Shown here piece after piece: positions 339 through 59,916 of a stretch of 64,000 nucleotides of DNA. Each line of letters begins with the position of its first letter. Within the stretch, counting starts at the first letter, position 1. The notes beneath the pieces were generated by a model. It made no database searches. It was not told where the DNA came from and saw nothing but the letters and a program-made list of their open reading frames with translations. Source of the DNA: Raphanus sativus (taxonomy: Eukaryota; Streptophyta; Magnoliopsida; Brassicales; Brassicaceae); contig NC_079511.1 of assembly GCF_000801105.2 (NCBI RefSeq), forward strand, positions 20,855,792-20,919,791, read 5' to 3'. The position numbers and the translations under genes are program-made.

Positions 339-381
339 AATCTGAAAAATCCATTGAAAGAAAACGATTGAGAAAGAGATC

Positions 382-4688: not shown

Positions 4689-4695
4689 GGGGGAG
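4687..4695 (+). other. polypurine tract of copia element
   Basis: GAGGGGGAG directly abuts the 3' LTR; the standard plus-strand primer position. Confidence 0.85.
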
Positions 4696-4924
4696 TGTTA
4701 GCGATGGTTATGTTGGGTTATGGCAAACCGGTCTACGGTTTGGTGTGATATGAGTCTTGGAGATCAAGTTAGTTGTTGAGATATATATTGTTGAGATAGA
4801 CTCTGATAGATATTGGATAACAGAGAATCTCGTATGCTGAGATCACATTGTAACAAGTATATATGTAACATACACGACGTGAATAAACTCAGAACATTCT
4901 CATCATCTTCTTTCTCAGTTTACA
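4696..4924 (+). repeat. 3' LTR of copia element
   Basis: 229 bp, paired with 97-325. Followed by the target duplication AGAAA. Confidence 0.95.
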
Positions 4925-33502: not shown

Positions 33503-33712
33503 AGTGTTTTTCGTTTATGCTTTATTCTATATTATGATCTCTTTCCCCGGGCTTTTGATGACTTTGTAACCGAATAAAGACTTCTGATAATAATAATAAT
33601 ACTTATCGTTTTCGCCTTCTTCTGTTGTATTCATTTCTTGGATTCGCGCCTTCACAAATCTTTAGTCCCTTCTTCCGATTAGAACGGTTCACATGGGTTT
33701 TGAGCGTAAATT

Positions 33713-35875
33713 TCGAGGAATACCTTCCGTGATTTGGATTGTGTTCCCGGAGGTATGCTTTTTAGAGCTGCATATTCTGGTTATTGGGAACCAGAATGTT
33801 GTGAAAACTTGGGTAGCTACCGTTTCAGGGCAGGTATCCTCGGCTTGCTCCGTTAGTTTGCTCTCTTTCTCAGCTTTAGTAGCTATGTCGATGCTTGGTT
33901 TTTCGATTCCTTCTACAGGTATGATCCGTTTTACGAGGGGGTCTGACGTGGAAGCTAAAGCAGCCAACGCATCTGCTGAGGAGTTCTCTCCTCGTGGGAT
34001 CCTTGTTAGCTCGAATTTGTCGAACTGTCTAGTGAGGTTCTGTATGACTTCGAGATATGCCCCCATTCTTTCGTCCCTCGTTTCATATTCTCTGTGAAAC
34101 TGGCTAGCTACTAGCTGTGAATCACTATAAGTGTTTAGCTGTCGAATTCCGAGACTTAGGGCGAGTTTCAACCCTGCGATTAATGCTTCATATTCAGCTT
34201 CGTTGTTTGAGGCGCTGAATCCGAGCCTATATGACTGCTCGATGGTTTCTCCTGCTGAAGAGGTTAGCCTTAGGCCGACGCTGGAGCCCTGTTTTGACGA
34301 GGCTCCGTCGACATACATGCTCCACTTCGGAGATTCCATTTCGGAGTCTAATTGCTCGGATGCTAGTTCAATGATAAAGTTGGCGAGGACCTGAGCTTTC
34401 GCTGCTGCTCGAGGTCTATACTCGATATCGTATTCACTGAGCTCTATGGCCCATTTGGCCAATCGCCCTGACTGGCTAGGGCTGTGCAATATCATTCGTA
34501 ATGGTTGTGAGGTCATTACGACGATTGAATGCGATTGGAAGTAAGGTCGCAACTTTCTAGCAGCTGTTACGACTGCTAGAGCTAGTTTTTCCATTGCAGG
34601 GTACCTTGTTTCGGCATCTATCAAACTCTTACTGGTGTAATAGACAGGTCTTTGTTCGTTTTGTTCCTCTCGTACCAGAACGCCGCTAACTGCAGCAGTC
34701 GATACAGCGAGGTACAGGTACAATGGCTCTCCTACTACTGGTTTAGATAGGATCGGAGGTTCGGAGAGGTAAGCTTTCAATTGCTTGAAGGCTTCCTCGC
34801 ATTTCTCGTCCCATAAGAACTTCTTATTATTTCTTAGAAGCTTGTAGAATGGGAGACACTTATCGGTGGACTTGGATATGAATCGATTTAATGCCGCGAT
34901 TCGTCCAGTCAATCTCTGTACCTCTCTAGTTGTCCTAGGTGACGGCATTTCTAGGAAGGTTGCTAACTGCTGCGGGTTGGCTTCAATGCCTCTTTCGGTT
35001 ACAAGATAGCCTAGGAACTCGCCCGAGGGTACCCCGAAGGTACATTTAGTGGGATTGAGCTTCATATCGTACTTGTTAAGGATATCGAAGCATTCTCTTA
35101 AATGGGCGATATGGTCTTCTCCAGCTGAGGATTTGACTAGCATATCGTCAATATAGACCTCCATGGTTTTTCCAAGTTGCCCAGCAAACATCTTATTTAC
35201 TAGCCTCTGGTAGGTAGCTCCTGCATTCTTTAATCCGAATGGCATAACCTTGTAACAATAGGTTCCTCGTTCGGTTATGAATGCAGTTTTCTCCTGGTCG
35301 TCAGGATCCATCATGATTTGGTTGTACCCTGAGAAGGCATCCATAAAGGATAGGAGTCTATGGCCAGCTGTTGCTTCAACCAGGCGGTCGATGTGAGGTA
35401 ACGGGAAGCTGTCTTTAGGACAAGCTTTGTTCAGGTCTGTGAAGTCAACACAGATTCTCCATTTCCCGTTTTTCTTCTTTACCACTACTGGGTTAGCTAA
35501 CCAGTCGGGGTAGTGTACCTCTCGAATGGATCCAGCTTTCGTAAGTCGGTCAACTTCGTCGTTAACAGCCTGAGCCTTCTCGAGGCCGAGCTTGCGACGC
35601 TTTTGTTTGATCGGTTTGAAAGTAGGGTCTACTTTTAGCTTATGGGTGGTGACGTTCGGATCTATGCCTTTCATGTCGCTGGTGGACCATGCAAAGGTTT
35701 TGACATTGCTTTTCAGAAAATCAATGAGCTCCCTTTTTGTTTCAGGAGGTAGCTCGGATCCGATGCTCACCTGTCTTTCAGGATCTGAGTCATCAATGCA
35801 AACTTTTTCAGTGAGGTTCTTGGGGGGACCTCAGATATTTTGTTGCATTTCGCGACCCTCCTGGATCTGTAATTG
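33713..35875 (-). pseudogene. I2 reverse transcriptase and RNase H domains (truncated pol)
   Basis: In frame with gag-protease across the TAG. A TGA at 35833-35831 replaces the CGA seen in I1. Then RT (VVVKKKNGKWRICVDFTDLN, FMDAFSGYNQI, catalytic YIDDMLVKS), RNase H (YTSKSLIDAETRYPAMEKLA) and the second, archaeal-type RNase H of Tat elements (WSMYVDGASSKQGS, SNNEAEYEALIAGL, ENSSADALAALAS). Ends at the deletion junction before integrase. Confidence 0.88.
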
Positions 35876-35878
35876 CTA
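35870..35878 (-). promoter_or_regulatory. candidate leaky stop (UAG CAA UUA) in I2
   Basis: The gag-protease frame ends in TAG directly followed by CAA TTA, the UAG-CAR-YYA context known for stop-codon readthrough in plants. The same frame continues into pol 35 codons before the next long ORF segment, interrupted only by one TGA that I1 has as CGA. Function is inferred. Confidence 0.6.
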
Positions 35879-38566
35879 TTGGGGGGATTTTTTGAGGATT
35901 TCGAATCCTCCCAAATAGCAGATCCTGGATATCTTCTGGCTACCATGTATGGTAGCTATCCCTTCGGGTGTTGGGAATTTTACGCATTGATGATACGTTG
36001 AGGCTACTGCCTTCATTTTGTGAATCCAGGGTCTTCCCAGGATCGCATGGAACGGGGAAGGTCTGTCGATGACTACTAAGTTGGTCATTTTCATTATTCT
36101 GCCAGCTATGACTGGGAGCTTGATAGTTCCCAATGAGGTAGCTGTTTCTCCGGAGAAGCCTACGAGGTTAACTTTTTGGCCAATAATTTTGTAGTCGTCT
36201 ATTTCCATCCCTTTTAGGGTGTTATAGAAAATGAGGTCGACAGAGCTTCCTGTGTCTATCATGAGCTTAGGTACCTCGTAACCTGCGATGTTCAGGGAAA
36301 CAATCAACGCATCATCGTGAGGTCTGTCAAGGTTTGAGGTCTCGCTCTCCCAGAAAGAAATCTTAGTATTGGATTCAGGGTTAGGAGGCTTAGGTCCAGT
36401 GTTAGACACAGCCTTCCGCACGTGATTCTTAATGGAATTGACGGAGTCTTGACATATGTCTGATCCTCCAAGGATACAGTCCACCCTCGAGTCGGGGCTC
36501 GATTGAGGGGACGGTTTGCTCAAGAGAGCTTCGACTTGAAAACTTTTTCCTTGGGGGAATTTCCCAAGAATCATGTCGACTCTCTTCTTGGGAGCTGGAG
36601 GTGACGAATCGGTCTCCTTCTCAGGTGACCTCTCGCGTTTCGGGGAAGTGTCCCTGGATCCTCTTTTCTGATAAGGTGATGGCTTTTTAAGGTCCACACC
36701 CTTTATTTCTCCAGCTGCGAATTTAGCTGCCAGCTGTCGTTGGAGGTCCCAACATTCCTCGGTTGAGTGCCCTTCGCGATCGTGATAAGAGCAACGTTTG
36801 CCTTTATCAAAGCCTTTTGACCAGGGAGTTTTGTTTGCTGCTGCAACGGGTTTCTCCTCCTTGTCTTCCTCGATTGCGTAGGAATGTTCTCCCTGAGTCT
36901 GATTATTTCGGGGGTTACCCTTTTTATGAGGTCCCTTAGCCTTAGAGGGTTCACCTTTCGAGTGATTCTGAGGTTTCTTGTGTAGTTTATCCAGTGCAGC
37001 TGTCTCCTCCTCCAGAGTAATATATCTGGTGGCTTTATGAAGAGCGTCATCGATAGTTGGAGGAGTGTTGAGTGTTAGTTCTGACCAGAATTTCGATTTA
37101 TAGATCAGACCTCTCCTAAGAGCCTCGATGGCGACTAGGTCGTTAGGATTCGAGAGCTTAGTTCTTATTGTCCTGAATTTCTCGATGTAGACTCGTAGTG
37201 AGTCCCCCATTCCTTGTCTGACCTTCCAAAGGTCGGCCTCAGAGGCTTACTTCAGGATATGGGTTGAGTACTGCTTCATGAAGGCGTTAGTTAATTGATC
37301 GAAACTGTCTATCGAGGCTGGCTCGAGACCGGAGAACCACTCAAGGGCTGTTCCGACCAAATTTCCGGCGAATGTCCTGCAGTAACCTGCTTCACATTCT
37401 TCCTGAGTGAAATGGGCTTTAACGATTGCCAATCGGAAAGCTCTCAAATAGGCCTTCGGGTCAGAGGTCCCATCATACTCGGGAATTCTGATTTTTCGGG
37501 TATCTCTTATGTGAGAGCTGGCAATTCTGTCAGTGAATGGAGTTCCACGGGTTTCCTCGATCAAGCTATCGATTTCGGGAGCTGAGCTCGTAGCTTTATG
37601 GACTTGAGCTCCCAATTTTTGGAGAGCTGCGTGAGTTCGTTCCATATATCGACGGATAGCTTCAGGTCCCTCTAAGGGAAGGACGTTTGGGTCGTTAGCA
37701 GGTACCCGACGGGCAGGTTCCTGACGGAATCGAGTTGGCTCATCCTCCCATGCGGTTGATGGGCGAAGTCGCTCACCAGCTCTTGGGTTATCGGAATCTA
37801 TCCTTTGATAACCGTCCCCATTCGGGATCGAGCTTCTGGTTTGATAAACCGAATCTGACGCTCTGCCACTAGATGGAAAGGATATTCCTGCTCCGGACCT
37901 AAGATCAGGTGGCGGAGGAGGTAAGCGAGTGCTCCTGTCAGTAACCTGACTGGGTGTGGAACTGGTTGTCGCTACGTTACTTCCCATAGCACTGGTGTTA
38001 GGTGGATTAAACACGGGAGCTGCCCCAGTATGAGGTGTTTGGAAAGCAGATCCGCGTCCTTCCGGAACAGTGTTATCAGGGAAAAAGTTTAAACGTCCTC
38101 GGGGGAATGAAGGATCGGTTAATCGATCATGGAAAGTGACCCCCAGAGTTTGACGTTGCGTTGGTTGGGTTGTTGTGTTTAGAGATCTAGTTATCTCTTC
38201 GAATCGTTGCTGACGAACAGTCAGCTGATGCATCGTACGCTCACTTTCCTGAGCTTTGTCTACTAACTGCATCATCATCTGGCGAATCTCAGAGAGCTGG
38301 GCCTCCGTTTGATTCAGAATGGCTTGCTGCTGAGGATTCTCAGTGATCGGGAGCCCGGGGGTGGTTCCACTTGATGATCTTGGGTTAGTAACCCCGGTTG
38401 TAGTTTGGCTCGTTTGAGCGCCAGCCGGAAGCTGTTGCCCAGATCGGTGGTCGCCACGTCGAGGCTCTGTGACTACGGGACTAGAGCCTCCGTCGTTCGG
38501 TGAGCCATCGCTCTGAATCGGGAGGTTAAGGTCAGACGGGTTTGTTGTCTGATCGGTAGGATTCAT
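35876..38566 (-). pseudogene. I2 gag-protease
   Basis: Start ATG at 38566 (MNPTDQTTNPSDLNL). Contains the gag capsid domain, a CCHC-like knuckle (CSYHDREGHSTEEC) and the aspartic protease (LMIDTGSSVDLIF). One TAA (37249-37247) replaces a CAA present in I1, consistent with a C-to-T change. The frame then runs to TAG at 35878-35876, which is followed by CAA TTA (see findings); pol continues in the same frame. Confidence 0.88.
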
Positions 38567-38619
38567 CCTCAAGTTAGAGTAAGGGATTCGATTGTTTCTT
38601 CCCCACAGACGGCGCCAAT

Positions 38620-39158
38620 TGTGAGGGGTAAAACTCACACCTAGATTTTAGATCAGGTTTAGTGTTTAGAAAAGGTTAGGGAAAGATAATCGCGGGCTGA
38701 ATCCCGTAAAAACTTGTGGAATGAATAATGATTTTATTGATGATTTTGGTAAAGAATGGTTACAAGGAATGTTCTTTGATGATTACAAAGATAACAAAAT
38801 GAATTGGAGATTACGTAAATGATCGTAAAAAGTGAATAAAAATTGGATCCCCTCTTTAGTCCTCGACCTTCTCTTTAAATAGCCTTGGACTTCTTTAGGT
38901 TGTCTTCAACTAATCTCCGAGATCTTCTCCGCTTGAGGTGGTATCCGCAACAGCTTCCCTTTGACCGGGCCCTGCGCTTCTTCTTGTTATGATGTGAGCT
39001 TCCTCTTCGCCGTGACCTCTCTAAAGATTGCCTTAGCTCTCAGCCTTCGGCTTCAACTTAGCTCCTTTTAGATGTCGAACTCGTGATGGGCCAGTCGTGG
39101 CCTGTTATCGTCTTTCATTATTCAGCAATCAGCTACCGGGCCATATTCGGGCCCAACA
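38620..39158 (-). repeat. 5' LTR of I2
   Basis: 539 bp; on the minus strand it starts TGTTGGGCCCGAATATGG and ends CCCCTCACA, followed by the primer-binding site TGGCGCCGTCTGTGGGG. Same family as the 547-bp I1 LTR with many substitutions. Confidence 0.9.
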
Positions 39159-41575: not shown

Positions 41576-42122
41576 TGTTGGGCCCAAATATGGCCGGTAG
41601 CTGATCATTCAATAGTAAAAGATGACGATGGGCCGCGATAAGCCCATCACGAGTTCTAAGTCTAAAGAGAGCTAAGTAGAAGCCGAAGGCTGAAAACTAA
41701 GGATCCTAACCAAGGAGGTCACGACGAAGAGGAAGCTCACGTCATAATAAGAAGAAGCGCAGGACCCGGTCAAGGGGAAGCTGTTGCGGATTCCATCTCA
41801 AGTGGAGAAAATCTCGGAGGTCAGTTGGAGACAACTTAAAGAAGTCCAAGGCTATAAAAGGAGAGGGTAAAAGACTAAGAAAGGGATCCGACCCAACTGA
41901 TATTTTACTCAATATTCATCAAAACGTTCTCATTGTAATTCTCTTGTAATCTTTGTATTCGTCAAAGATCATCTTTTGTAACCATCCCATTTCTATTATA
42001 TCAATACAAATCGAAGTTCATTCAACAAGTTCTTACGGGATTCAGCCCGCGATAATCTTTCACAAACCTTTCCTAAATATAAAACCTGATCTAAAATCTA
42101 GGTGTGAGTTTTACTCCTCACA
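41576..42122 (+). repeat. 5' LTR of I1
   Basis: 547 bp, TGTTGGGCCCAAATATGG to CTCCTCACA. TATA box at 41853-41859 (GCTATAAAAGG), a likely start of element transcription. Confidence 0.95.
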
Positions 42123-42124
42123 AT

Positions 42125-42141
42125 TGGCGCCGTCTGTGGGG
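42125..42141 (+). other. primer-binding site of I1
   Basis: TGGCGCCGTCTGTGGGG begins two bases after the 5' LTR. TGG complements a tRNA 3' CCA; the tRNA itself was not identified. Confidence 0.8.
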
Positions 42142-42175
42142 AAGAAACAATCGAATCCCTTACTCTAACTTGAAG

Positions 42176-44962
42176 ATGAACCCTACCGATCAGACAACAA
42201 ACCCGTCTGACCTTAACCTCCCGATTCAGAGCGATGGCTCACTGAACGACAGAGCCTCTAGTCTCGTAATCACAGAGCCTCAACGTGGCGACCACCGATC
42301 TGGGCAACAGCTTCCGGCTGATGCTCAAACGAGCCAAACTACAACCGGAGTTACTAACCCGAGGTCATCAGGTGGAAACACTTCCGGGCTCCCGGTTACC
42401 GAGAATCCTCAGCAGCAAGCCATTCTGATTCAAACAGAGGCTCAGCTCTCTGAGATCCGCCAGATGATGATACAATTAGTAGACAGAGCTCAGGAAAGTG
42501 AGCGCACGATGCATCAGCTGACCGTACGTCAACAACGATTCGAAGAGATAACTAGATCTCTAAACGCAATAACCCAACCACCGCAACGTCAAGCTCCGGG
42601 GGTCATCTTTCATGATCGATTAACCGATCCCTCATTTCCCCGAGCACGTTTAAATTTTTCCCCTGATAGCACTGCCCCGGAAGGACGCGGATCTGCTTTC
42701 CAGACACCTCATACTGGAACAGCTCCCGTGTTTAATCCACCTAACGCCAGTGCTATGGGAAGTAACATAGCGACAACTAGTTCCACACCCGGTCAGGTTA
42801 CTGACAGGAGTACTCGTTTACCTCCTCCGCCGCCTGATCTTAGGTCCGGAGCAGGAATATCCTTCCCATCTGGGGGCAGAGCGTCAGCTTCGGTTTATCA
42901 AACTAGAAGCTCGATCCCGAATGGGGACGGTTATCAAAGGATAGATTCCGATAACCCAAGAAATGCCGAGCGACTTAGCCCACCAACCGCATGGGAGGAT
43001 GAGCCAACTCGATTCCGTCAGGAACCTGCCCGTCGGGTACCTGCGAACGATCCAAACGTCCTTCCGTTTGAAGGACCTGAAGCTATCCGTAGATATATGG
43101 AGCGAACTCACGCGGCTCTCCAGAAATTGGGAGCTCAAGTCCATAAAGCTACGAGTTCAGCTCCCGAAATCGATAGCTTAATCGAGGAAACCCGTGGAAC
43201 TCCATTCACGGACAGAATTGCCAGCTCTCACATAAGAGATACCCGAAAAATCAGAATTCCCGAGTATTATGGGACCTCCGACCCAAAAGCCTATTTGAGA
43301 GCTTTCCGATTGGCAATTGTTAAAGCCCATTTCACACAGGAAGAATGTGAAGCAGGTTACTGCAGGACATTCGCCGAAAATTTGGTCGGAACAGCCCTTG
43401 AGTGGTTCTCCGGTCTCGAGCCAGCCTCGATAGACAATTTCGATCAATTAACCAACGCCTTTATGAAGCAATACTCAACCCATATCCGGAAGCAAGCCTC
43501 TGAGGCCGACCTTTGGAAGGTCAGTCAAGGAATGGGAGACTCATTACGAGTCTACATCGAGAAATTCAGGGCAATAAGAACTAAGCTCTCGAATCCTAAC
43601 GACCTAGTCGCCATCGAGGCCCTTAGGAGAGGTCTGTTCTATAGATCGAAATTCTGGTCAGAGCTAACACTCAATGCTCCTCCAACTATCGATGACGCTC
43701 TTCATAGAGCCACCAAATATATTACTTTGGAGGAGGAGACAGCTGCACTGGATAAACTCCACAAGAAACCTCAGAATCATTCGAAAGGTGACTCCTCTGA
43801 GACTAAGGGACCTCATAAAAAGGGTAACCCTCGAAATAATCAGACTCAGGGAGAACATTCCTACGCAATCGAGGAAGACAAGGAAGAGAAACCTATTGCA
43901 GCAGCAAACAAAACTCCCTGGTCAAAAGGCTTCGATAAAGGCAAACGTTGCTCTTATCACGATCGCGAAGGACACTCAACCGAAGAGTGTTGGGACCTCC
44001 AACGCCAGCTGGCAGCTAAATTCGCAGCTGGAGAAATAAAGGGCGTGGACCTTAAAAAGCCACCACCTTATCAGAAAAGAGGTTCCAGGGACACTTCCCC
44101 GAACCGCGAGAGGTCACCTGAGAAGGAGACCGATTCGCCACCTCCAGCTCCCAAGAAAAGAGTCGACATGATTCTTGGGAAATTCCCCCAAGGAAAAAGT
44201 TTACAAGTCGAAGCTCTCTTGAGCAAACCGTCCCCTCAATCGAGCCCCGACTCGAGGGTGGACTGTATCCTTGGAGGATCAGACATATGTCAAGACTCCG
44301 TCAATTCCATTAAGAATCACGTGCGGAAGGCTGTGTCTAACACTGGACCTAAGCCTCCTAACCCTGAATCCAATACTAAGATTTCTTTCTGGGAAAGCGA
44401 GACCTCAAACCTTGACAGACCTCACGATGATGCGTTGATCGTCACCCTGAACATCGCAGGATACGAGGTTCCTAAGCTCATGATAGACACAGGAAGCTCT
44501 GTCGACCTCATTTTCTATAACACCCTAAAAGGGATGGAAATAGACGACTACGAAATTATTGGCCAAAAAGCTAACCTCGTAGGCTTCTCCGGAGAAACAG
44601 CTACCTCATTGGGAACTATCAAGCTCCCAGTCATAGCTGGCGGAATAATGAAAATGACCAACTTAGTAGTCATCGATAGACCTTCCCCGTTCCACGCGAT
44701 TTTGGGAAGACCCTGGATTCACAAAATGAAGGCAGTAGCCTCAACGTACCATCAGTGCGTAAAATTCCCAACACCCGAAGGGATAGCTACCGTACATGGT
44801 AGCCAGAAGATATCCAGGATCTGCTATTTGGGAGGATTCGAAATCCTCAAAAAGTCCCCCAATAGCAATTACAGATCCAGGAGGGTCGCGAAATGCAACA
44901 AAATATTCGAGGTCCCCCAGGAACCTAACCGAAAAAGTTTGCATCGACGACTCAGATCCTGA
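42176..44962 (+). CDS. I1 gag-protease
   Basis: Start ATG 42176 (MNPTDQTTNPSDLNL), 928 codons. N-terminal Pro/Ser/Thr-rich region, gag capsid domain (about residues 350-500), CSYHDREGHSTEEC knuckle, basic/Pro-rich linker, aspartic protease LMIDTGSSVDLIF (about residues 765-777) and GRPWIHKM. At 44856-44860 this copy has five Cs where I2 has six, so the frame slips past the TAGCAATTA string (44863-44871) and reads on to a stop at 44962 in what is probably the wrong frame. Single-base homopolymer loss (mutation or sequencing error) is likely. Confidence 0.9.
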   Translation: MNPTDQTTNPSDLNLPIQSDGSLNDRASSLVITEPQRGDHRSGQQLPADAQTSQTTTGVTNPRSSGGNTSGLPVTENPQQQAILIQTEAQLSEIRQMMIQLVDRAQESERTMHQLTVRQQRFEEITRSLNAITQPPQRQAPGVIFHDRLTDPSFPRARLNFSPDSTAPEGRGSAFQTPHTGTAPVFNPPNASAMGSNIATTSSTPGQVTDRSTRLPPPPPDLRSGAGISFPSGGRASASVYQTRSSIPNGDGYQRIDSDNPRNAERLSPPTAWEDEPTRFRQEPARRVPANDPNVLPFEGPEAIRRYMERTHAALQKLGAQVHKATSSAPEIDSLIEETRGTPFTDRIASSHIRDTRKIRIPEYYGTSDPKAYLRAFRLAIVKAHFTQEECEAGYCRTFAENLVGTALEWFSGLEPASIDNFDQLTNAFMKQYSTHIRKQASEADLWKVSQGMGDSLRVYIEKFRAIRTKLSNPNDLVAIEALRRGLFYRSKFWSELTLNAPPTIDDALHRATKYITLEEETAALDKLHKKPQNHSKGDSSETKGPHKKGNPRNNQTQGEHSYAIEEDKEEKPIAAANKTPWSKGFDKGKRCSYHDREGHSTEECWDLQRQLAAKFAAGEIKGVDLKKPPPYQKRGSRDTSPNRERSPEKETDSPPPAPKKRVDMILGKFPQGKSLQVEALLSKPSPQSSPDSRVDCILGGSDICQDSVNSIKNHVRKAVSNTGPKPPNPESNTKISFWESETSNLDRPHDDALIVTLNIAGYEVPKLMIDTGSSVDLIFYNTLKGMEIDDYEIIGQKANLVGFSGETATSLGTIKLPVIAGGIMKMTNLVVIDRPSPFHAILGRPWIHKMKAVASTYHQCVKFPTPEGIATVHGSQKISRICYLGGFEILKKSPNSNYRSRRVAKCNKIFEVPQEPNRKSLHRRLRS

Positions 44963-47255
44963 AAGACAGGTGAGCATCGGGTCCGAGCTACCTCCTGAGA
45001 CAAAAAAGGAGCTCATTGATTTCTTGAAAAGCAATGTCAAAACCTTTGCATGGTCCACCAGTGACATGAAAGGAATAGATCCGAACGTCACCACCCATAA
45101 GCTAAAAGTTGACCCTACTTTCAAACCGATCAAACAGAAGCGTCGTAAGCTAGGCCTCGAAAAGGCTCAAGCTGTTAACGACGAAGTTGACCGACTTACG
45201 AAAGCTGGGTCCATTCGAGAGGTACATTACCCCGACTGGTTAGCTAACCCAGTAGTGGTAAAGAAGAAAAACGGGAAGTGGAGAATCTGTGTAGACTTCA
45301 CAGACCTAAACAAAGCTTGTCCTAAAGACAGCTTCCCGTTACCTCACATCGACCGCCTGGTTGAAGCAACAGCTGGCCATCGACTCCTATCCTTCATGGA
45401 TGCCTTCTCAGGATACAACCAAATCATGATGGATCCTGAGGACCAGGAGAAAACTGCATTCATAACCGAACGAGGAACCTATTGTTATAAGGTTATGCCA
45501 TTCGGATTAAAGAACGCAGGAGCTACCTATCAGAGGCTAGTAAATAAGATGTTTGCTGGACAACTTGGAAAAACCATGGAGGTCTATATCGACGACATGC
45601 TAGTCAAATCCTCAGCTGGAGAAGATCATATCTCCCACTTAAGGGAATGCTTCGATATCCTGAACAAGTACGATATGAAGCTCAATCCCACTAAATGTAC
45701 TTTCGGGGTACCCTCAGGCGAGTTCCTAGGCTATCTCGTAACCGAAAGAGGCATTGAAGCCAACCCGCAGCAGATAGCAACCTTCCTAGAAATGCCGTCA
45801 CCTAAGACGACCAGAGAGGTACAGAGATTGACTGGACGAATCGCGGCATTGAATCGATTCATATCCAAGTCCACCGATAAATGTCTCCCATTCTACAAGC
45901 TTCTAAGAAATAATAAGAAGTTCTTATGGGACGAGAAATGTGAGGAAGCCTTCAAGCAATTGAAAGCTTACCTCTCCGAACCTCCGATCCTATCTAAACC
46001 AGTAGTAGGAGAGCCATTGTACCTATACCTCGCTGTATCAACTGCTGCAGTCAGCGGCGTTCTAGTACGAGAGGAACAAAACGAACAAAGACCTGTCTAT
46101 TACACCAGTAAAAGTTTGATAGACGCCGAAACCAGGTACCCTGCAATGGAAAAACTAGCTCTAGCAGTCGTAACAGCTGCCAGAAAATTGCGACCTTACT
46201 TCCAATCGCACTCGATCGTTGTAATGACCTCACAACCATTACGAATGATATTGCACAGCCCTAGCCAGTCAGGGCGATTGGCTAAATGGGCCATAGAGCT
46301 CAGCGAATATGATATTGAGTATAGACCTCGAGCAGCAGCGAAAGCTCAGGTCCTTGCCGACTTTATCATTGAACTGACATCCGAGCAGTTAGACTCCGAA
46401 ATGGAATCTCCGAAGTGGAGCCTATACGTCGACGGAGCCTCATCAAAACAGGGCTCCGGTATCGGTCTAAGGCTAACTTCTTCAGCAGGAGAAACCATTG
46501 AGCAGTCATATAGGCTCGGATTCAGCGCCTCAAACAACGAAGCTGAATATGAAGCACTAATCGCAGGGTTGAAGCTCGCCCTAAGCCTCGGAATCCGAGA
46601 GCTAAACGCTTATAGTGATTCACAGCTAGTAGCTAGCCAGTTTCACGGAGAATATGAAACGAGGGACGAAAGAATGGGGGCATATCTCGAAGTCGTCCAG
46701 AACCTCACTAGGCAGTTCGACAAATTCGAGCTAACGAGAATCCCACGAGGTGAGAACTCCTCAGCAGATGCGTTGGCTGCTTTAGCTTCCACGTCAGACC
46801 CCCTCGTAAAACGAATCATACCCGTAGAAGGAATCGAGAAACCAAGCATCGACATAGCTACTAAAGCTGAGAAAGAGAGCAAACTAACAGCGCAACCCGA
46901 AGGTACCTGCCCTGAAACGGTAGCTACCCAGGTTTTCACAACATTTTGGTTTCCAAAAACCAGAATATGCAGCGCAAAAAAGCATACCTCCGGGAACACA
47001 ATCCAAATCACGGAAGATATTCCTCGAAATTCAGACTCCTTAGAGCCTGATCTCGAGAATACCCCGGGGGCACCAACTCAGACCCAGTCATCTGCAGAGT
47101 TAAAACCAGAAGCCGTACAGCTCTCCAAAATTCATCTGGAGGTATTCCTCGGAATTCAGACTCCCTGGAGCCCAATCCTACCAATACCTCCGGGGGCACC
47201 ACGACACCAGGTCCCGAACAGGAACCTCCCTCGTCTCTTCATAACAAAGTTGTAG
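44872..47255 (+). CDS. I1 RT, RNase H and archaeal-type RNase H
   Basis: Pol frame is open from 44796 but the protein is meaningful from about 44930 (TEKVCIDDSDPERQ). RT fingers/palm (VVVKKKNGKWRICVDFTDLN, YCYKVMPFGLKNAGATYQRL, catalytic YIDDMLVKS near 45585), RNase H (RPVYYTSKSLIDAETRYP), then the second RNase H (WSLYVDGASSKQGS, NNEAEYEALIAGLKLAL, NSSADALAALAS) that marks the Tat lineage. After about 47060 the frame is lost at a C run (four Cs here, five in the downstream copy), so the last 60 codons to 47255 are probably out of frame; integrase follows in another frame. Confidence 0.9.
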
Positions 47256-48520
47256 GAAGAGAGGATTGGAGAATTCCAATCACGCAATACATCCTGGAGG
47301 GAAAGACTCCACCCAATAAATGGGAGGCTCGAAAGCTCAAAGCATTAAGCGCGAGATATTGCGTAACTGAATCTGTCCTCCTCAAACGAAGCATTTCCGG
47401 ACCTTACCTAAAATGCGTCCATGGCCTCGTTGCTATGAGACTCATGAAGGAAATGCACGACGGTTCCTGCGGGAACCACTCTGGAGGAAGAGCTTTAGCC
47501 ATCAGAATCAAAAGACAAGGATATTTCTGGCCTACCATTATTGCAGATTGTGAGGCCTATTCCTCTTCATGCGACAAATGCCAGAGGCATGCACCGATTA
47601 TACACCAACCTGCGGAAAAGCTGTCTAACATATCCGCCCCTTATCCATTTATGAGATGGTCCATGGATATCGTGGGACCACTAGTACCATCAGGAAGTGG
47701 AAAGAAGAAGCTACGCTTCCTCTTAGTCTTAACGGACTACTTCACGAAATGGATAGAGGCTGAAGCTTTCCAGCAGGTAACCAGGGTCGAGGTCGAGCAA
47801 TTTGTATGGAAAGATATCGTGTGTAGACACGGCGTCCCATACGAAATCGTAACTGACAATGGAGGACAATTCATATCCCACGATTTCAAAATATTTTGTG
47901 ACAAGTGGAATATTCGCCTGACCTTCTCATCACCTCGCCGACCTCAAGGTAACGGACAGGCGGAGGCTGCTAATAAATCAGTATTAGCAAACCTCAAGAA
48001 ACGCCTCGGAACCCAGAAGGAACTCTGGTCAGAGAAGTTACTTGAAGTACTTTGGGCATGTCGGACCACCCCACGAAAAGCTACAGAAGAAACTCCTTTC
48101 TCCTTAGCATATGGGATGGAAGCTGTCGTTCCAGCTGAAACCATTGCTGGTAGCCTCCGCCGGGAACTCTGTACATCCAATCCCGCAGCTAATGATCAGC
48201 TCCTAACTGACAGCCTCGATCTAATCGAGGAAAGACGGGACCGAGCTTTGATTCGCATTCAGAACTATCAGCAAGCAATGGCACGACAGTACAATTCCAA
48301 AGTCAGGCTCCGGCAGTTCGCTGTAGGTGACCTAGTACTTAGGAAAGTTTTCGAAGGAACCAAAGAACCAAATGCTGGGAAGTTAGGAACCAACTGGGAA
48401 GGTCCCTACCAGATCATCCACGTGGTACGACCTGGCGTTTACAAGCTCCGAAAGGTGCGAACCGGGGTACCTGAAATCAGATCGTGGAACGCCACGAATC
48501 TTAAGAGATATTATCATTAG
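47220..48520 (+). CDS. I1 integrase
   Basis: Integrase frame is readable from about 47220 (HNKVVGREDWRIPITQYI) to TAG at 48520; no own start is needed, since the downstream copy shows it fused to pol in one frame. H2C2 zinc finger (HDGSCGNHSGGRAL, CDKCQRHAP), core D,D,E motifs (MDIVGPLVPSGSGKKKL, VTDNGGQFIS, RPQGNGQAEAANKSV) and a C-terminal part with GDLVLRKV, NWEGPYQI and GVYKLRKV. No internal stop. Confidence 0.9.
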
Positions 48521-48779
48521 GTACCTAAAATTCCTGAACTACGTTAGGCTTGATCCCTTGACTGGGTACGTAGGCAACTCCGTCATGAGTGCAGCCCCAA
48601 CCTCATTTCAACACTTCGTTCACTACAATCAAAGGGGGCATATGTCTGATTAAAATCACATAGCCCACGCAGCAAGTGTATGATCGTTATAATACAGCAA
48701 TTGTATGATTACTATGATACCATGTATCCAATTATCAATAAAGAAATTATTCTCGATATCTCAATTCTTTAACAAAACA

Positions 48780-49140
48780 GGTCCCTGCAAACCTGACCTA
48801 AGGTCTTAAAATCCTTACAATCCTAAAGGTCTTAAAATCCTTCAAAGCAATATCAGGTCTCGACTAACCTTAACCTAAGGTCTTAAAATCCTTCAAAGCA
48901 ATATCAGGTCTCGACGAACCTGAACCTAAGGTCTTAAAATCCTTCAGACAATATCAGGTCTCGACGAACCTGGACCTAAGGTCTTAAAATCCTTACCAAA
49001 TCTCCAAGGTCTTAAAATCCTTGTCAATTCTCCAAGGTCTTAAAATCCTTATCAAATCTCCGAGGTCTTAAAATCCTCATCAAATCACAAGGTCTTAAAA
49101 TCCTAAGCAAAGTCTCAACGGGTCTTAAAATCCCACAAAC
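48780..49140 (+). repeat. AAGGTCTTAAAATCCTT tandem repeats in I1 3' region
   Basis: The 17-mer occurs about ten times, spaced about 30 or 62 bp and interleaved with ATATCAGGTCTCGACGAACC. Repeated nearly identically at 54560-54910. Variable tandem repeats in the 3' untranslated region are typical of Tat/Ogre elements. The spacers are also repeats, so this is not a CRISPR array. Confidence 0.9.
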
Positions 49141-49510
49141 AAGTTCAGGTTCCAAGAACCCCACCTAAGGTGTCCAGATTAAACTTAGGTTCCTAAAAAA
49201 CTCTAAGCTAATCCCGATACTCCAAGAATTCCTCTTAAGGAACTAAAAACGACCAAAGTCCTCCAGACTTATCGTAAGATTCGATTATGATCAAAGTTGT
49301 CATATTTCACGACTAAAGCCAAAAACTCAAAATGAAACGAAAACCAAGTTTGAAATTAAACAAGGGTTTAAAAGCCTCCCCAGGCTAACAAAGATTCGAA
49401 GTACAAACAGATAAAGGTTTAAAAGCCTCCTCAGGCTATAAGTCTTAGAAACAAATGAAAACAAAGCCCATCGGGCAGAAATCCTAGAAAACATGAAAGA
49501 GCCTCAGCTC

Positions 49511-51016
49511 TTAAACTTCCTTGTCATCCGAGCTCTTCTCAGCTCCCTTACCAGCTGGATCTTCCTCCTCAGGAACCTCTTCCTCCATCTCCTTGTCGCT
49601 ACCTCCCAGAGGCGGTTTCGACTGGGGCTGAGTAAGAACCCACCAATCCCAAATTAGAACCGAACTCTCCAGAAAAGGAGAGATTAAACATATTAACCTC
49701 AAAAGTACCTGAGCTCTCAGAGAGTTGGGGAAGAGGGAGCTTGCCGATCGAGAAGTCCGAGACCTGAGCCTTCTCGTATGCCGCAACAGCTTCCGGCATT
49801 ATTGCCACCAAGTTATCATACTCGTCTTGAGTACTCTTAATCTCGCCATCCAGCATGTCTTTCAGGAGCTCGGTGTTGGCTTGAATCTCTTGAGCATGAA
49901 CCAGGAGGTCGACTTCGTCCTTCTTCTTGGAGAACTTCTCCTTGACAACAACCAGAATTGTTGTAGGCTTCAGCTACCTCCTTCTTTCCTCTCCGGACGG
50001 CTAGCCTGACCTCAGCTTCCTTGTTCTTCTGGCTGCTCTGAGATGTGGCAATCAGCTCCTTGACTTGATACTCGGCTATCTTCCGAGCAGCATCCAACTC
50101 CCCAATCTTCCTATTTTTCACCTGGAGGTCAATCAGCTGGCTCTCGATCGTCCCTTGCTGAGCATCACACTTAGAGCCAAGTCTCTTCACCTCGGCTTGG
50201 AGATCCGAGATCAGAGCCCGAGTCTGATTGAGCTCAGTCTTGTTGGCCTTGACCAACTCAGTGACCTGGGCTAATTCCTCAGCACTAGGGGCATTGTGTA
50301 CAGCGTCCTCAAACTTGAACTGAGCTCTGTTGATAGCACCAGCCAGCTACAGAAAACGGAAAACGATTTAGCGAAATCTTCCAAAGAAAAAGCTGAAAGA
50401 TGAAATAACTTCATACCTGACCCATGTGATGAGCAATATCGACGTACTCATCCTTGTGCGTGAGATTGGAGATCGAGGGGAGGGAACACCCGGGACTCTT
50501 CATGTGCCTCATCAGAGTAGCAAACCCCACGGATCGTCCAAAACCGATCCAGGCTTCGAATGAGCAAAGTTCCAGCCAACGGTTCCTCCTCTAGAGGAGG
50601 AGGAGGAAGACCTCGAAGGTCTGTCAACCTGGTCAGTTCGGGACCTCTTGTTCCTCGGGGGCTCAAGCTCCGGAGGATCCCTCACCATTTGGATCAGCCT
50701 CAGTCATCGGAACCTCGGAGGAAAGGCCAACTTCCTGAACCTTAGGCTCCGAAGAGCTACCTTTAGCAGGAGCAGAGCCTCCTTCGTCAAGAACCTCCTT
50801 CACAGAGTCAAGGAAGGATCCTCCCTGGTTCTTGTCACTCCCTCTAGAGGAGCTGGGCAGCCTTGGTCGATCTACCCCTGGAACGGAAGGAAGGTTGAAT
50901 TGGCATCTTTCTGTGAATGAGTCTTCTCGAGGAGTACTTGCTGCCGGAGGAAACTTCGGGAGAACGGAATCACCTTCAGAAACTAAGAATGAAAAAGATT
51001 CATTAATCGCATGAGA
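49511..51016 (-). pseudogene. I1 opposite-sense gene, first (broken, gap-truncated) copy
   Basis: Same text as 55286-56794 with many single-base or short indels (near 49605, 49960, 50695, 50755 and 50850), so the ORF is fragmented. Runs into the N gap. The errors are concentrated near the gap, which suggests poor consensus sequence rather than real decay. Confidence 0.75.
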
Positions 51017-51116
51017 NNNNNNNNNNNNNNNNNNNNNNNNNNNNNNNNNNNNNNNNNNNNNNNNNNNNNNNNNNNNNNNNNNNNNNNNNNNNNNNNNNNN
51101 NNNNNNNNNNNNNNNN
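51017..51116. other. 100-N assembly gap with overlapping flanks
   Basis: Exactly 100 Ns, the usual placeholder for unknown size. The sequence ending at 51016 matches the sequence ending at about 56794, and the sequence starting at 51117 matches the sequence starting at about 45340, so the flanks overlap by about 5.7 kb. Confidence 0.97.
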
Positions 51117-52571
51117 TCACATCGACCGCCTGGTTGAAGCACACAGCTGGCCATCGACTCCTATCCTTCATGGATGCCTTCTCAGGATACAATCAAATCA
51201 TGATGGATCTGAGGACCAGGAGAAAACTGCATTCATAAACCGAAGAGGAACCTATTGTTATAAGGTTATGCCATTCGGATTAAAGAACGCAGGAGCTACC
51301 TATCAGAGGCTAGTAAATAAGATGTTTGCTGGACAACTTTGGAAAACCATGGAGGTCTATTCGACGACATGCTAGTCAAATCCTCAGCTGGAGAAGATCA
51401 TATCTCCCATTTAAGGGAATGCTTCGATATCCTGAACAAGTACGATATGAAGCTCAATCCCACTAAATGTACTTTCGGGGTACCTCAGGCGAATTCCTAG
51501 GCTATCTCGTAACCCGAAAGAGGCATTGAAGCCAACCCGCAGCAAAGATAGCAACCTTCCGAAATGCCGTCACCTAAGACGACCAGAGAGGTACAGAGAT
51601 TGACTGGAACGAATCGCAGCATTGAATCGATTCATATCCAAGTCTACCGATAAATGTCTCCCATTCTACAAGCTTCTAAGAATAATAAGAAGTTTCTTAT
51701 GGGACGAGAAATGTGAGGAAGCCTTCAAGCAATTGAAGGCTTACCTCTCCGAACCCCCGATCCTATCTAAACCAGTAGTAGGAGAGCCATTGTACCTGTA
51801 CCTCGCTGTATGACTGCTGCAGTCAGCGGCGTTCTAGTACGAGAGGAACAAAACGAACAAAGACCTGTCTATTACACCAGTAAAAGTTTGATAGACGCCG
51901 AAACCAGGTACCCCGCAATGGAAAAACTAGCTCTAGCAGTCGTAACAGCTGCCAGAAACTGCGACCTTACTTCCAATCGCACTCGATCGTTGTAATGACC
52001 TCACAACCATTACGAATGATATTGCACAGCCCTAGCCAGTCAGGGCGATTGGCTAAATGGGCCATAGAGCTCAGCGAATATGATATCGAGTATAGACCTC
52101 GAGCAGCAGCGAAAGCTCAGGTCCCGCTGACTTTATCATTGAATTGACATCCGAGCAGTTAGACTCCGAAATGGAATCTCCGAAGTGGAGCCTATACGTC
52201 GACGGAGCCTCATCAAAACAGGGCTCCGGTATCGGTCTAAGGCTAACTTCTTCAGCAGGAGAAACCATCGAGCAGTCATATAGGCTCGGATTCAGCGCCT
52301 CAAACACACGAAGCTGAATATGAAGCACTAATCGCAGGGTTGAAGCTCGCCCTAAGCCTCGGAATCCGAGAGCTAAACGCTTATAGTGATTCACAGCTAG
52401 TAGCTAGCCAGTTTCACGGAGAATATGAAACGAGGGACGAAAGAATGGGGGCATATCTCGAAGTCGTCCAGAACCTCACTAGGCAGTTCGACAAATTCGA
52501 GCTAACGAGAATCCCACGAGGTGAGAACTCCTCAGCAGATGCGTTGGCTGCTTTAGCTTCCACGTCAGACC
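51117..52571 (+). pseudogene. second copy of I1 RT/RNase H, indel-rich
   Basis: Begins inside RT (HIDRLVEA...) and repeats 45340-46800. Frame is lost repeatedly by one- or two-base indels (for example GCACACAGC for GCAACAGC near 51140, a missing base near 51210, lost bases near 51360, 51485, 51805 and 52125, an extra CA near 52305). From about 52320 it is almost identical to the first copy. Best read as the unpolished end of an overlapping contig. Confidence 0.8.
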
Positions 52572-52572
52572 C

Positions 52573-54291
52573 CTCGTAAAACGAATCATACCCGTAGAAG
52601 GAATCGAGAAACCAAGCATCGACATAGCTACTAAAGCTGAGAAAGAGAGCAAACTAACAGCGCAACCCGAAGGTACCTGCCCTGAAACGGTAGCTACCCA
52701 GGTTTTCACAACATTTTGGTTTCCAAAAACCAGAATATGCAGCGCAAAAAAGCATACCTCTGGGAACATAATCCAAATCACGGAAGATATTCCTCGAAAT
52801 TCAGACTCCTTAGAGCCTGATCTCGAGAATACCCCCGGGGGCACCAACTCAGACCCAGTCATCTGCAGAGTTAAAACCAGAAGCCGTACAGCTCTCCAAA
52901 ATTCATCTGGAGGTATTCCTCGGAATTCAGACTCCCTGGAGCCCAATCCTACCAATACCTCCGGGGGCACCACGACACCAGGTCCCGAACAGGAACCTCC
53001 CTCGTCTCTTCATAACAAAGTTGTAGGAAGAGAGGATTGGAGAATTCCAATCACGCAATACATCCTGGAGGGAAAGACTCCACCCAATAAATGGGAGGCT
53101 CGAAAGCTCAAAGCATTAAGCGCGAGATATTGCGTAACTGAATCTGTCCTCCTCAAACGAAGCATTTCCGGACCTTACCTAAAATGCGTCCATGGCCTCG
53201 TTGCTATGAGACTCATGAAGGAAATGCACGACGGTTCCTGCGGGAACCACTCTGGAGGAAGAGCTTTAGCCATCAGAATCAAAAGACAAGGATATTTCTG
53301 GCCTACCATTATTGCAGATTGTGAGGCCTATTCCTCTTCATGCGACAAATGCCAGAGGCATGCACCGATTATACACCAACCTGCGAAAAAGCTGTCTAAC
53401 ATATCTGCCCCTTATCCATTTATGAGATGGTCCATGGATATCGTGGGACCACTAGTACCATCAGAAAGTGGAAAGAAGAAGCTATGCTTCCTCTTAGTCT
53501 TAACGGACTACTTCACAAAATGGATAGAGGCTGAAGCTTTCCAGCAGGTAACCAGGGTCGAGGTCGAGCAATTTGTATGGAAAGATATCGTGTGTAGACA
53601 CGGCGTCCCATACGAAATCGTAACTGACAATGGAGGACAATTCATATCCCACGATTTCAAAATATTTTGTGATAAGTGGAATATTCGCCTGACCTTCTCA
53701 TCACCTCGCCGACCTCAAGGTAACGGACAGGCGGAGGCTGCTAATAAATCAGTATTAGCAAACCTCAAGAAACGCCTCGGAACCCAGAAGGAACTCTGGT
53801 CAGAGAAGTTACTTGAAGTACTTTGGGCATGTCGGACCACCCCACGAAAAGCTACAGAAGAAACTCCTTTCTCCTTAGCATATGGGATGGAAGCTGTCGT
53901 TCCAGCTGAAACCATTGCTGGTAGCCTCCGCCGGGAACTCTGTACATCCAATCCCGCAGCTAATGATCAGCTCCTAACTGACAGCCTCGATCTAATCGAG
54001 GAAAGACGGGACCGAGCTTTGATTCGCATTCAGAACTATCAGCAAGCAATGGCACGACAGTACAATTCCAAAGTCAGGCTCCGGCAGTTCGCTGTAGGTG
54101 ACCTAGTACTTAGGAAAGTTTTCGAAGGAACCAAAGAACCAAATGCTGGGAAGTTAGGAACTAACTGGGAAGGTCCCTATCAGATCATCCATGTAGTACG
54201 ACCTGGCGTTTACAAGCTCCGAAAGGTGCGAACCGGGGTACCTGAAATCAGATCGTGGAACGCCACGAATCTTAAGAGATATTATCATTAG
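52573..54291 (+). CDS. second copy of I1 pol end and integrase, one open frame
   Basis: Here the RNase H tail, the linker and integrase lie in a single frame to TAG at 54291, because the C run near 52835 has five Cs. Integrase matches 47220-48520 with only a few substitutions (for example SESGKKKLCF for SGSGKKKLRF). It shows the intended pol-integrase fusion. Probably the same locus as the first copy. Confidence 0.8.
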   Translation, partial: LVKRIIPVEGIEKPSIDIATKAEKESKLTAQPEGTCPETVATQVFTTFWFPKTRICSAKKHTSGNIIQITEDIPRNSDSLEPDLENTPGGTNSDPVICRVKTRSRTALQNSSGGIPRNSDSLEPNPTNTSGGTTTPGPEQEPPSSLHNKVVGREDWRIPITQYILEGKTPPNKWEARKLKALSARYCVTESVLLKRSISGPYLKCVHGLVAMRLMKEMHDGSCGNHSGGRALAIRIKRQGYFWPTIIADCEAYSSSCDKCQRHAPIIHQPAKKLSNISAPYPFMRWSMDIVGPLVPSESGKKKLCFLLVLTDYFTKWIEAEAFQQVTRVEVEQFVWKDIVCRHGVPYEIVTDNGGQFISHDFKIFCDKWNIRLTFSSPRRPQGNGQAEAANKSVLANLKKRLGTQKELWSEKLLEVLWACRTTPRKATEETPFSLAYGMEAVVPAETIAGSLRRELCTSNPAANDQLLTDSLDLIEERRDRALIRIQNYQQAMARQYNSKVRLRQFAVGDLVLRKVFEGTKEPNAGKLGTNWEGPYQIIHVVRPGVYKLRKVRTGVPEIRSWNATNLKRYYH

Positions 54292-54559
54292 GTACCTAAA
54301 ATTCCTGAACTACGTTAGGCTTGATCCCTTGACTGGGTACGTAGGCAACTCCGTCATGAGTGCAGCCCCAACCTCATTTCAAACACTTCGTTCACTACAA
54401 TCAAAGGGGGCATATGTCTGATTAAAATCACATAGCCCACGCAGCAAGTGTATGATCGTCGTAATACAGCAATTGTATGATTACTATGATACCATGTATC
54501 CAATTATCAATAAAGAAATTATTCTCGTTATCTCAATTCTTTAACAAAACAGGTCCCTG

Positions 54560-54910
54560 CAAACCTGAACCTAAGGTCTTAAAATCCTTAACAATCCTAA
54601 AGGTCTTAAAATCCTTCAAAGCAATATCAGGTCTCGACTAACCTGAACCTAAGGTCTTAAAATCCTTCAAAGCAATATCAGGTCTCGACGAACCTGAACC
54701 TAAGGTCTTAAAATCCTTCAGACAATATCAGGTCTCGACGAACCTGGACCTAAGGTCTTTAAATCCTTACCAAATCTCCAAGGTCTTAAAATCCTTGTCA
54801 ATTCTCCAAGGTCTTAAAATCCTTATCAAATCTCCGAGGTCTTAAAAGCCTCATCAAATCACAAAGGTCTTAAAATCCTAAGCAAACTTCAACGGGTCTT
54901 AAAATCCCAC
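54560..54910 (+). repeat. second copy of AAGGTCTTAAAATCCTT repeats
   Basis: Matches 48780-49140 unit for unit with minor differences; part of the probable assembly duplication. Confidence 0.9.
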
Positions 54911-55285
54911 AAACAAGTTCAGGTTTCCAAGAACCCCCACCCAAGGTGTCCAGATTAAACTTAGGTTCCTAAAAACTCTAAGCTAATCCCGATACTCCAA
55001 GAATTCCTCTTAAGGAACTAAAAACGACCAAAGTCCTCCAGACTTATCGTAAGATTCGATTATGATCAAAGTTGTCATATTTCACGACTAAAGCCAAAAA
55101 CTCAAAATGAAACGAAAACCAAGTTTGAAATTAAACAAGGGTTTAAAAGCCTCCCCAGGCTAACAAAGATTCAAAGTACGAACAGATAAAGGTTTAAAGA
55201 CCTCCTCAGGCCATAAGTTATAGAAACAAATGAAAACAAAGCCCATCGGGCAGAAATCCTAGAAAACATGAAAGAGCCTCAGATC

Positions 55286-57785: not shown

Positions 57786-58225
57786 GATAGTGAAGGGAAA
57801 GGAAAATAGGAAGCAAAAGAAGGGAATCGATCTAAGGCAGAATCTCAGAGAGAAGTTCGAGATGAAGAATTGGATTGATCGAGAAGCGTATAAAAAAAAA
57901 ATAATGACGAAAAAACGGTAAAATAAAGGAAAGGGGGTGAATTACCTTGGAAACCGTCGAGAGGCGTGGAGGAAGTGGAGAGACAAGTAGTTAATTCTCT
58001 CAGCTTTATATCCCATCACGTCTCGAAAATCGGAAATTAAATTTCAAACTCGCTTTAATCTAAAGCTGTCGATTTAATTAAGGACAGATTATAGCCGTCC
58101 GATCGGATAAGAGTAAATGCGGTTGAGATAGCTAGTAATCATGATCTCAACAAGAGAATCTAGCTTGGACGGCTAGGTCTAGCTCCCGAGAATAACGAAA
58201 CCTCATCTCGAGAGCTGGGGGCAAC

Positions 58226-58772
58226 TGTTGGGCCCGAATATGGCCGGTAGCTGATCATTCAATAGTAAAAGATGACGATGGGCCGCGATAAGCCCATCAC
58301 GAGTTCTAAGTCTAAAGAGAGCTAAGTAGAAGCCGAAGGCTGAAAACTAAGGATCCTAACCAAGGAGGTCACGACGAAGAGGAAGCTCACGTCATAATAA
58401 GAAGAAGCGCAGGACCCGGTCAAGGGGAAGCTGTTGCGGATTCCATCTCAAGTGGAGAAAATCTCGGAGGTCAGTTGGAGACAACTTAAAGAAGTCCAAG
58501 GCTATAAAAGGAGAGGGTAAAAGACTAAGAAAGGGATCCGACCCAACTGATATTTTACTCAATATTCATCAAAACGTTCTCATTGTAATTCTCTTGTAAT
58601 CTTTGTATTCGTCAAAGATCATCTTTTGTAACCATCCCATTTCTATTATATCAATACAAATCGAAGTTCATTCAACAAGTTCTTACGGGATTCAGCCCGC
58701 GATAATCTTTCCCAAACCTTTCCTAAATATAAAACCTAATCTAAAATCTAGGTGTGAGTTTTACTCCTCACA
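58226..58772 (+). repeat. 3' LTR of I1
   Basis: 547 bp; three differences from 41576-42122. Followed by the duplication ACGAC. Confidence 0.95.
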
Positions 58773-58777
58773 ACGAC

Positions 58778-59158
58778 CACCACATTGGCTAGCCATTCCG
58801 GGTATTGCACCTCTCGTATGAATCCAGCATCTAGTAAGTTCTTGACCTCTTCGTTGATTATCTCGTCCCTTTCAGGAGCAAATTTTCTCCTCTTCTGCCT
58901 GACAGGAGGTTGCATCGGGTCCACCTTGAGTTGATGCATGATAACATCGGGATCAATTCCAGGCATGTCTTCATGAGACCAGTCAAAGCAATCGGAGTTG
59001 GATCTTAGGAAATCAACCAGTCTCCTTCTCAAGCCTTCTGGAAGCTTGGAGCCTATCTTTAAGTTTCGGCTCGAGTTTCCTTCCGTGAGCGGGACCTCAT
59101 CCATTTCTTCCACTTCCGGCTATTCGGTATGTGGGGCCGGAAGCTTCTTCTGTAATTG
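58778..59158 (-). pseudogene. element O pol start (before the I1 insertion)
   Basis: Directly follows the protease TAG in frame: CAA TTA CAG..., a second TAG 12 codons further on, then MEEMDEVPLTEG, GSKLPEGLRRRLVDFLRSN, MPGIDPDVIMHQLKVDP and EVQYPEWLANVVVV, where I1 interrupts the RT. Continues at 41575. Confidence 0.88.
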
Positions 59159-59161
59159 CTA
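59153..59161 (-). promoter_or_regulatory. candidate leaky stop (UAG CAA UUA) in O
   Basis: The protease frame ends TAG then CAA TTA CAG, as in I2, and pol begins 15 codons later in the same frame. The bases on either side differ from I2, so the shared string stands out. Function is inferred. Confidence 0.6.
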
Positions 59162-59914: not shown

Positions 59915-59916
59915 GG

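Follow-up and report, generated by a model that had tools for sequence, protein, structure and literature searches.

Programmed type I UAG readthrough very probably sets the ratio of Gag-Pro to Pol in Tat-lineage Ty3/gypsy retrotransposons of radish (Raphanus sativus). Three such elements (I1, I2 and I3) lie within the window, the whole 64-kb stretch of DNA that was analysed, and the proposal is based on the sequence of a stop site between protease and RT, its position and frame, its conservation in two families and its match to a cassette that has been tested in plants. A mechanism is proposed in which gag-protease and RT-RNaseH share one frame that is split by a single UAG in the context UAG-CAA-UUA-CAG. 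Most ribosomes would halt at the UAG and release Gag-Protease, while a minority would insert an amino acid there and continue into Gag-Pro-Pol. The context of the UAG would thereby determine how much structural protein is made relative to enzymatic protein; the Gag UAG of murine leukaemia virus has this role too, although the signal used here is of the plant-virus type. That readthrough takes place on these transcripts, the level it reaches and its role in particle assembly are what we infer from these observations.

In plant viruses, the type I readthrough signal consists of a UAG with CARYYA after it (PMC5382211), in agreement with the original prediction, which had recognised UAG-CAR-YYA as a leaky context. 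This arrangement is found in I1, I2 and I3 and in the copies sampled from the genome, with UAA in 1/70 copies. The signal of tobamo-, beny- and pomoviruses shares the UAG, CAA and UUA, and a stretch of 17 nt, CAATAGCAATTACAGAT, is the same in I1, I2 and the cassette primer printed in PMC2754532; I3 differs from it at the ends. In a GST-GFP reporter in N. benthamiana, the cassette gave readthrough of about 20% of the sense control with insertion of tyrosine; for the same viral region, a second reporter (NAN-GUS) gave 32% (PMC2754532). This is a compact signal that already works in plant cells. It differs from the viral signal in its setting, which here is a chromosomal LTR retrotransposon with the stop between protease and RT, where readthrough is predicted.

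Three Tat elements and their protease/RT boundary

I1, I2 and I3 are assigned at the level of the Tat lineage. Angiosperm Tat clades are marked by a second RNase H before the integrase (PMC6317226), and the Pfam domains of I1/I2 comprise gag, aspartic protease, RT, RNase H, a second RNase H (RVT_3) and integrase, although the aspartic protease match is weak in I2 (E 4e-4) and is not listed for I1. The domains follow the Tat order GAG-PROT-RT-RH-INT (by Pfam, with the weak protease match in I2 only), and RVT_3 stands after RT_RNaseH as the additional RNase H (aRH) in both I1 and I2. Retand and Ogre are distinguished by an antisense TRP28 ORF between pol and the 3' LTR and by the type of primer-binding site (PMC6317226, PMC11963269).

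I2 runs on the minus strand from 39158 down to about 33700 and belongs to the family of I1, with which it is 93% identical. Sequence matching the I1 LTR (80%; 38619..39158, -) is found on the 5' side of gag. The first part of gag (37247..38647, -) has the same frame as the protease stretch and is closed by a stop at 37247-37249; this earlier stop in the gag-pro frame identifies I2 as a decayed copy. The open stretch with the aspartic protease (35879..37246, -) terminates at TAG CAA TTA (35870..35878, -; the TAG itself at 35876-35878), a type I leaky context that is in frame with both protease and RT, and pol with RT, RNase H and second RNase H (33692..35830, -) follows in the frame of the TAG, just as had first been noted. 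The site is part of a conserved 14-mer, ATAGCAATTACAGA (35866..35879, -). A second in-frame linker stop, TGA (35831..35833, -), is the sole further stop between the TAG and RT; it reads CGA in I1 and in 39/41 other copies, which upholds its earlier interpretation as a probable point mutation.

I1 is a young Tat element (41576..58772, +; from LTR and target-site comparison) that is nested in I3 and includes an assembly gap. Comparison of its LTRs over 550 nt shows three differences, and on either side of the element stands the 5-bp target duplication ACGAC. TAGCAATTA is present at the homologous boundary (44863..44871, +), where it lies outside both the gag-pro and the RT frame because the two flanking C tracts contain five C, not six. 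The gag-pro open frame (42095..44962, +; 955 aa from stop to stop) extends beyond this out-of-frame TAG. RT, RNase H and the second RNase H form one open frame (44787..47255, +), and the integrase frame (47051..48520, +) differs from that of RT. The gap consists of 100 N at 51017-51116, and the sequences flanking it (45344-51016 and 51117-56794) are 98% alike; over 5.7 kb they differ by 83 substitutions and 35 indel events. A 5.7-kb tandem duplication is doubted here; the repeat straddles the 100-N gap and probably reflects overlapping contigs, an assembly artefact or mixed copies.

I3 is an older, divergent minus-strand element of another family, which is split by I1 and shares just 33% identity with it over the gag-pro match. 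Its protease-bearing stretch (59162..59980, -) terminates at TAG CAA TTA (59153..59161, -), a stop in the protease frame and also in the one that continues to RT. The linker and RT-proximal frame follow the TAG (58774..59158, -), and pol resumes on the other side of I1 at 41581-39161 (-). A second TAG lies 12 codons past the first; a sense codon takes its place in each of the 21 other I3-family copies whose linkers were compared. Elsewhere in the window, a Ty1/copia element (97-4924) carries 229-nt end repeats that are 99% alike together with long gag and pol frames, and tandem units of about 0.8-0.9 kb, the copies of which are 65-92% alike, occupy 11754-14361.

The motif TAGCARYYA is not rare in the window, where three matches compare with 3.71 expected and at least three occurred in 69/100 shuffles, and the motif count was therefore rejected as support by itself. 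All three matches sit on one homologous boundary, and the evidential weight is that of position and frame, not of the bare motif. When up to two mismatches are allowed, 0.81 matches to ATAGCAATTACAGA are expected in the window; three are observed, all of them free of mismatches. Of all exact runs common to I2 and I3 over the approximately 1.2 kb from protease to RT, this 14-mer is the longest. The next-longest is 12 nt, at places that do not match, and 12 nt was also the maximum in 30 shuffled controls.

Copies of the two families in the radish genome

The Raphanus sativus genome (433 Mb) was scanned for further copies. For the I1/I2 family, the best 40 of 444 first-look candidates were scored, I1 included; the 39 others and I2 of the window make up 40 rows, with I1 kept apart. 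For the I3 family, scoring covered the best 40 of 205 candidates, from which 30 loci, I3 included, were extracted. Both samples are biased towards likeness because the copies taken were those nearest to the query.

The original prediction, that readthrough rather than frameshifting or an intron is used, was to fall if most relatives lacked the TAG or had it out of frame. Instead, TAGCAATTA or TAACAATTA was found in 70/70 copies from the two distant families (I1 counted apart), and the stop is in the gag-pro frame in 55/70, which supports the prediction in two radish families, though not Tat-wide. With both families pooled, the stop is in the RT frame in 50 of the 66 copies with an RT motif and in both frames in 38/70; it is the sole stop between protease and RT in 35/70 copies (34 TAG, 1 TAA).

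Taken by family, the I1/I2 copies (without I1) carry TAGCAATTA in 40/40, in the gag-pro frame in 28/40 and in the RT frame in 26 of the 38 with an RT motif; both frames apply in 17/40, and no other stop separates protease from RT in 16/40. The I3 family has TAG in 29/30 and TAA in 1/30. Here, the stop is in the gag-pro frame in 27/30, in the RT frame in 24 of the 28 with an RT motif, in both in 21/30 and alone between protease and RT in 19/30, the TAA copy being among these 19; an earlier, stricter scoring of this family gave 25, 22 and 20 of 29. The TAA copy (L340) has this codon in place of TAG before CAATTACAG, and both of its flanking frames are intact. Evidence against readthrough comes from 12/40 I1/I2-family copies in which TAG and gag-pro are in different frames, as they also are in the young I1.

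Where the stop is in the RT frame, the linker is open in 21/24 copies of the I3 family and 23/26 of the I1/I2 family. The linker looks coding, with N:S at 0.52 and 0.36 of the neutral expectation, albeit from small counts (25 N/17 S in the I3 family and 6/6 in the I1/I2 family). The I3-family protease tail is near neutral (0.89), which indicates little constraint. Windows of 14 nt that vary as little as the stop site number 22/218 in the I3 family and 58/188 in the I1/I2 family. The copies are young, so conservation within a family is weak evidence and was dropped as strong support.

The stop block of I2 also takes part in an inverted repeat (35870..35920, -), in which AATAGCA can pair with the upstream Cys-Tyr codons TGCTATT. 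Cys-Tyr codons TGCTAT, complementary to the stop-bearing ATAGCA, are likewise found in I1 (44822-44871, +) and I3 (59153-59200, -). A genome-wide search for TGCTAT, a gap of 22-52 and ATAGCAATTA returned 315 sites compared with seven for a reversed control pattern. Among the 100 of these 315 places that were listed, 96 were placed by eye in the two families (65 + 31) and four outside them, and in 80/96 the TAG is in the frame of the Cys-Tyr codons. Folding z-scores around the stop are -2.1 for I2, -1.6 for I1 and -1.3 for I3; the folding energy is just weakly unusual, so no functional hairpin is claimed at the stop.

Probable readthrough and competing explanations

An Ogre-like intron over the TAG, spliced from part of the transcripts with TTACAG as the 3' splice site, would also join gag-pro to pol, and it has a precedent within the lineage: in Ogre, a Tat relative, gag-pro and RT-RH-INT occupy two frames and an intron separates protease from RT (PMC6317226). 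CAG forms the end of the conserved block, and in 59/200 anchored database proteins the linker is shortened and the stop skipped, as would result from predicted introns. In Ogre, however, the ORFs are on average 274 bp apart and are joined by partial splicing (PMC6317226), whereas a stop codon alone, and no spacer of about 274 bp, lies between the frames in 35/70 radish copies. One frame on both sides of the stop, directly adjoining, is seen in 38/70 copies, and an intron needs neither feature. Simple scoring found that the best donor up to 260 nt upstream matches 6/9 consensus positions in one copy and 5/9 in three, and that the 11 nt preceding the CAG are 45% pyrimidine in these four copies. 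The coding appearance of the linker further argues against an intron, as does, weakly, the altered CAG in L379 (TTATAG) and L380 (TTACAA), both of which are copies with later stops. We thus regard the intron as unlikely. Programmed frameshifting at C or A tracts is a poorer candidate still, and we consider it extremely unlikely. It would accommodate the young I1, in which RT is out of the gag-pro frame, and the C tracts before and after the TAG do vary among 41 I1/I2-family copies (6/6 in 23, 5/6 in eight, 6/5 in five, 5/5 in two and 4/5 in one; two more are 6/6 in length with a T within the first tract, counted 3/6). Yet the I3 family has no such tract and nevertheless has the boundary and frame in common, the gag-pro frame enters the TAG directly in 28/40 I1/I2-family copies, and gag-pro and RT form one frame through the stop in the 38/70 copies noted above. 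The tract variation could reflect homopolymer assembly error, considering the 35 indel events in 5.7 kb between the halves of I1 on either side of the 100-N gap.

Pol could instead be made separately, by re-initiation or internal entry past the stop, in which case the TAG context would be incidental. Both Raphanus families do have AUG codons in their linkers, but at different places (codon 19 past the stop for the I3 family, codon 10 for the I1/I2 family), and the first methionine past the stop falls just before the RT-proximal FAWS in Silene P0118 and just after it in Centaurea P0141. Separate initiation leaves the conservation of the UAG context unexplained, and we give it the slimmest of chances. 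A different kind of objection is that a stop flanked by CAATTA arose by chance and was copied, so that its conservation would reflect ancestry without function. Copies within each family are young and would be alike anyway; the two families, on the other hand, occupy separate places in the protease tree, and no exact run that they share is longer than this block. Recurrence of QLQ at the stop place in Silene and Centaurea proteins, and the retention of frame on both sides in most copies, make ancestry without function highly improbable.

The gammaretroviral stop lies upstream of the protease, whereas the stop in these elements lies downstream of it. Type I readthrough, the explanation preferred here, does resemble the strategy of murine leukaemia virus, in which gag and pol occupy one frame with a UAG between them and readthrough is needed for Gag-Pol (PMC4178896); gammaretroviral readthrough differs in its purine-rich stretch and pseudoknot, as named in titles cited in PMC2754532. 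Soybean SIRE1 is likewise a plant LTR retrotransposon with stop-codon suppression (PMC2829016), which confirms what had been said of its stop upstream of an env-like ORF. SIRE1 is different in that the stop lies between pol and the env-like gene and in that it belongs to the Ty1/copia superfamily. Rice RIRE2 is closer, being gypsy-type, assigned to Retand/Tat by PMC6317226 and cited for candidate readthrough in PMC2754532, although it comes from a monocot; the likeness drawn here is one of lineage and candidate readthrough.

Readthrough in LTR retrotransposons is thus already known (SIRE1, with RIRE2 as a candidate), and because RIRE2 has been cited in this connection, the earlier claim that nothing of the kind had been described at this boundary in Tat elements is weakened. 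No description of a type I context at the protease/RT boundary was found in the literature searched, a scope outside which most subscription journals fall. With the RIRE2 caveat, this context at this place in Tat elements may be new. A 2025 survey covers Retand elements of the same lineage and reports gag and pol as two ORFs in clusters without a single ORF (PMC11963269). Passages of the survey on two-ORF Tat/Retand elements are silent on how pol is expressed, and the words readthrough, suppress and recoding are absent from its main text (PMC11963269). If the proposal is correct, plant Ty3/gypsy elements would have a control of the Gag:Pol ratio that is distinct from the Ogre intron, and this would provide a host-side system in which to study termination control in plants. 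It would also explain many database gene models that stop at, or skip, the boundary.

Other eudicots and Tat families without the stop

Three protein searches yielded 309 proteins, from which 109 without a recognisable protease anchor (the STYHQ motif) and five that terminate 12-22 aa past the anchor were set aside. Termination within 60 aa of STYHQ was seen in 59/198 anchored proteins. Across all 309, 54 terminate 36-46 aa past STYHQ and form 15 tail groups, the named ones of which are from Brassicaceae, Asteraceae and Caryophyllales. In all 15 representatives, the last residue has a codon ending in A, as A-UAG needs, and Cys-Tyr stands upstream of the end in 14/15 of these stop-type groups. 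At the Cys-Tyr place, single-ORF rows often have CF, LL, ML or CV, and CY in some.

In some proteins, a sense codon at the stop place is followed by QLQ: Y in Silene P0102 and K in both Silene P0118 and Centaurea P0141, the last of which was aligned with P0220, whose end is the same point. Silene P0221 has E followed by QLQ, although its upstream part is not a usual protease tail and its placement is less sure. Codons for K, E and Y are one base away from TAG or TAA, and not from TGA. The CAA TTA CAG codons of other species are deduced from amino acids and are thus putative. P0075 (Acer) reads IAIT and P0202 (Vitis) IAII at the boundary, which would fit the same or nearly the same nucleotides in another frame.

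Other rows cross the boundary without a stop (26, judged by eye). A protease tree was built from 20 single-ORF rows (not near-identical, labelled by eye), 28 stop-type rows and two QLQ rows, unlabelled rows being left out. By this quick method, the stop label needs at least six changes, three of which are required by well-supported branches, and the tree places I2 and I3 in separate regions. Searching the Raphanus sativus genome with P0088 (67 candidates scored) also revealed families whose gag-pol is a single frame, reaching 1,988 aa in length. In the 2025 Retand survey, 37 clusters (59%) have gag and pol in one ORF, a share that is apparently 83% in eudicots (PMC11963269). The stop-free Tat families and the 83% of the survey indicate that Tat elements can do without the leaky-stop signal, which may be the less common arrangement; among recently active eudicot Retand elements, the two-ORF form may likewise be in the minority. 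The leaky stop is not a general Tat feature.

A wider scenario can be drawn from these distributions, which we regard as doubtful. The UAG-CAA-UUA cassette might be ancient in Tat elements, predating the main split of eudicot families and being lost repeatedly on gag-pol fusion; plant viruses and retrotransposons might then share one signal, and the Cys-Tyr codons might be kept partly for pairing with the stop block. Among viral contigs, the best 80 of 367 loci found with the RT-RNaseH protein match the RNase H part alone, and RT alone gave no match. The 14-mer occurs there in at least 120 stretches, which were taken as chance. The best 80 of 156 loci that matched a Tat alignment in a genome-contig collection again match the RNase H part alone, while plasmids gave three distant records and phages none.

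A further Raphanus family, found with P0011, has first stops of TAA in 14, TAG in five and TGA in one of 20 copies. TAGCARYYA and the RT-proximal motif are each present in 0/20 of these copies (701 nt per copy). The family looks like a semi-autonomous Tat derivative with its stop outside the leaky context, and in the sampled radish families the leaky context accompanies a downstream pol frame. The copies of the P0011-found family (L359-L378) retain long intact gag-pro frames of up to 912 aa.
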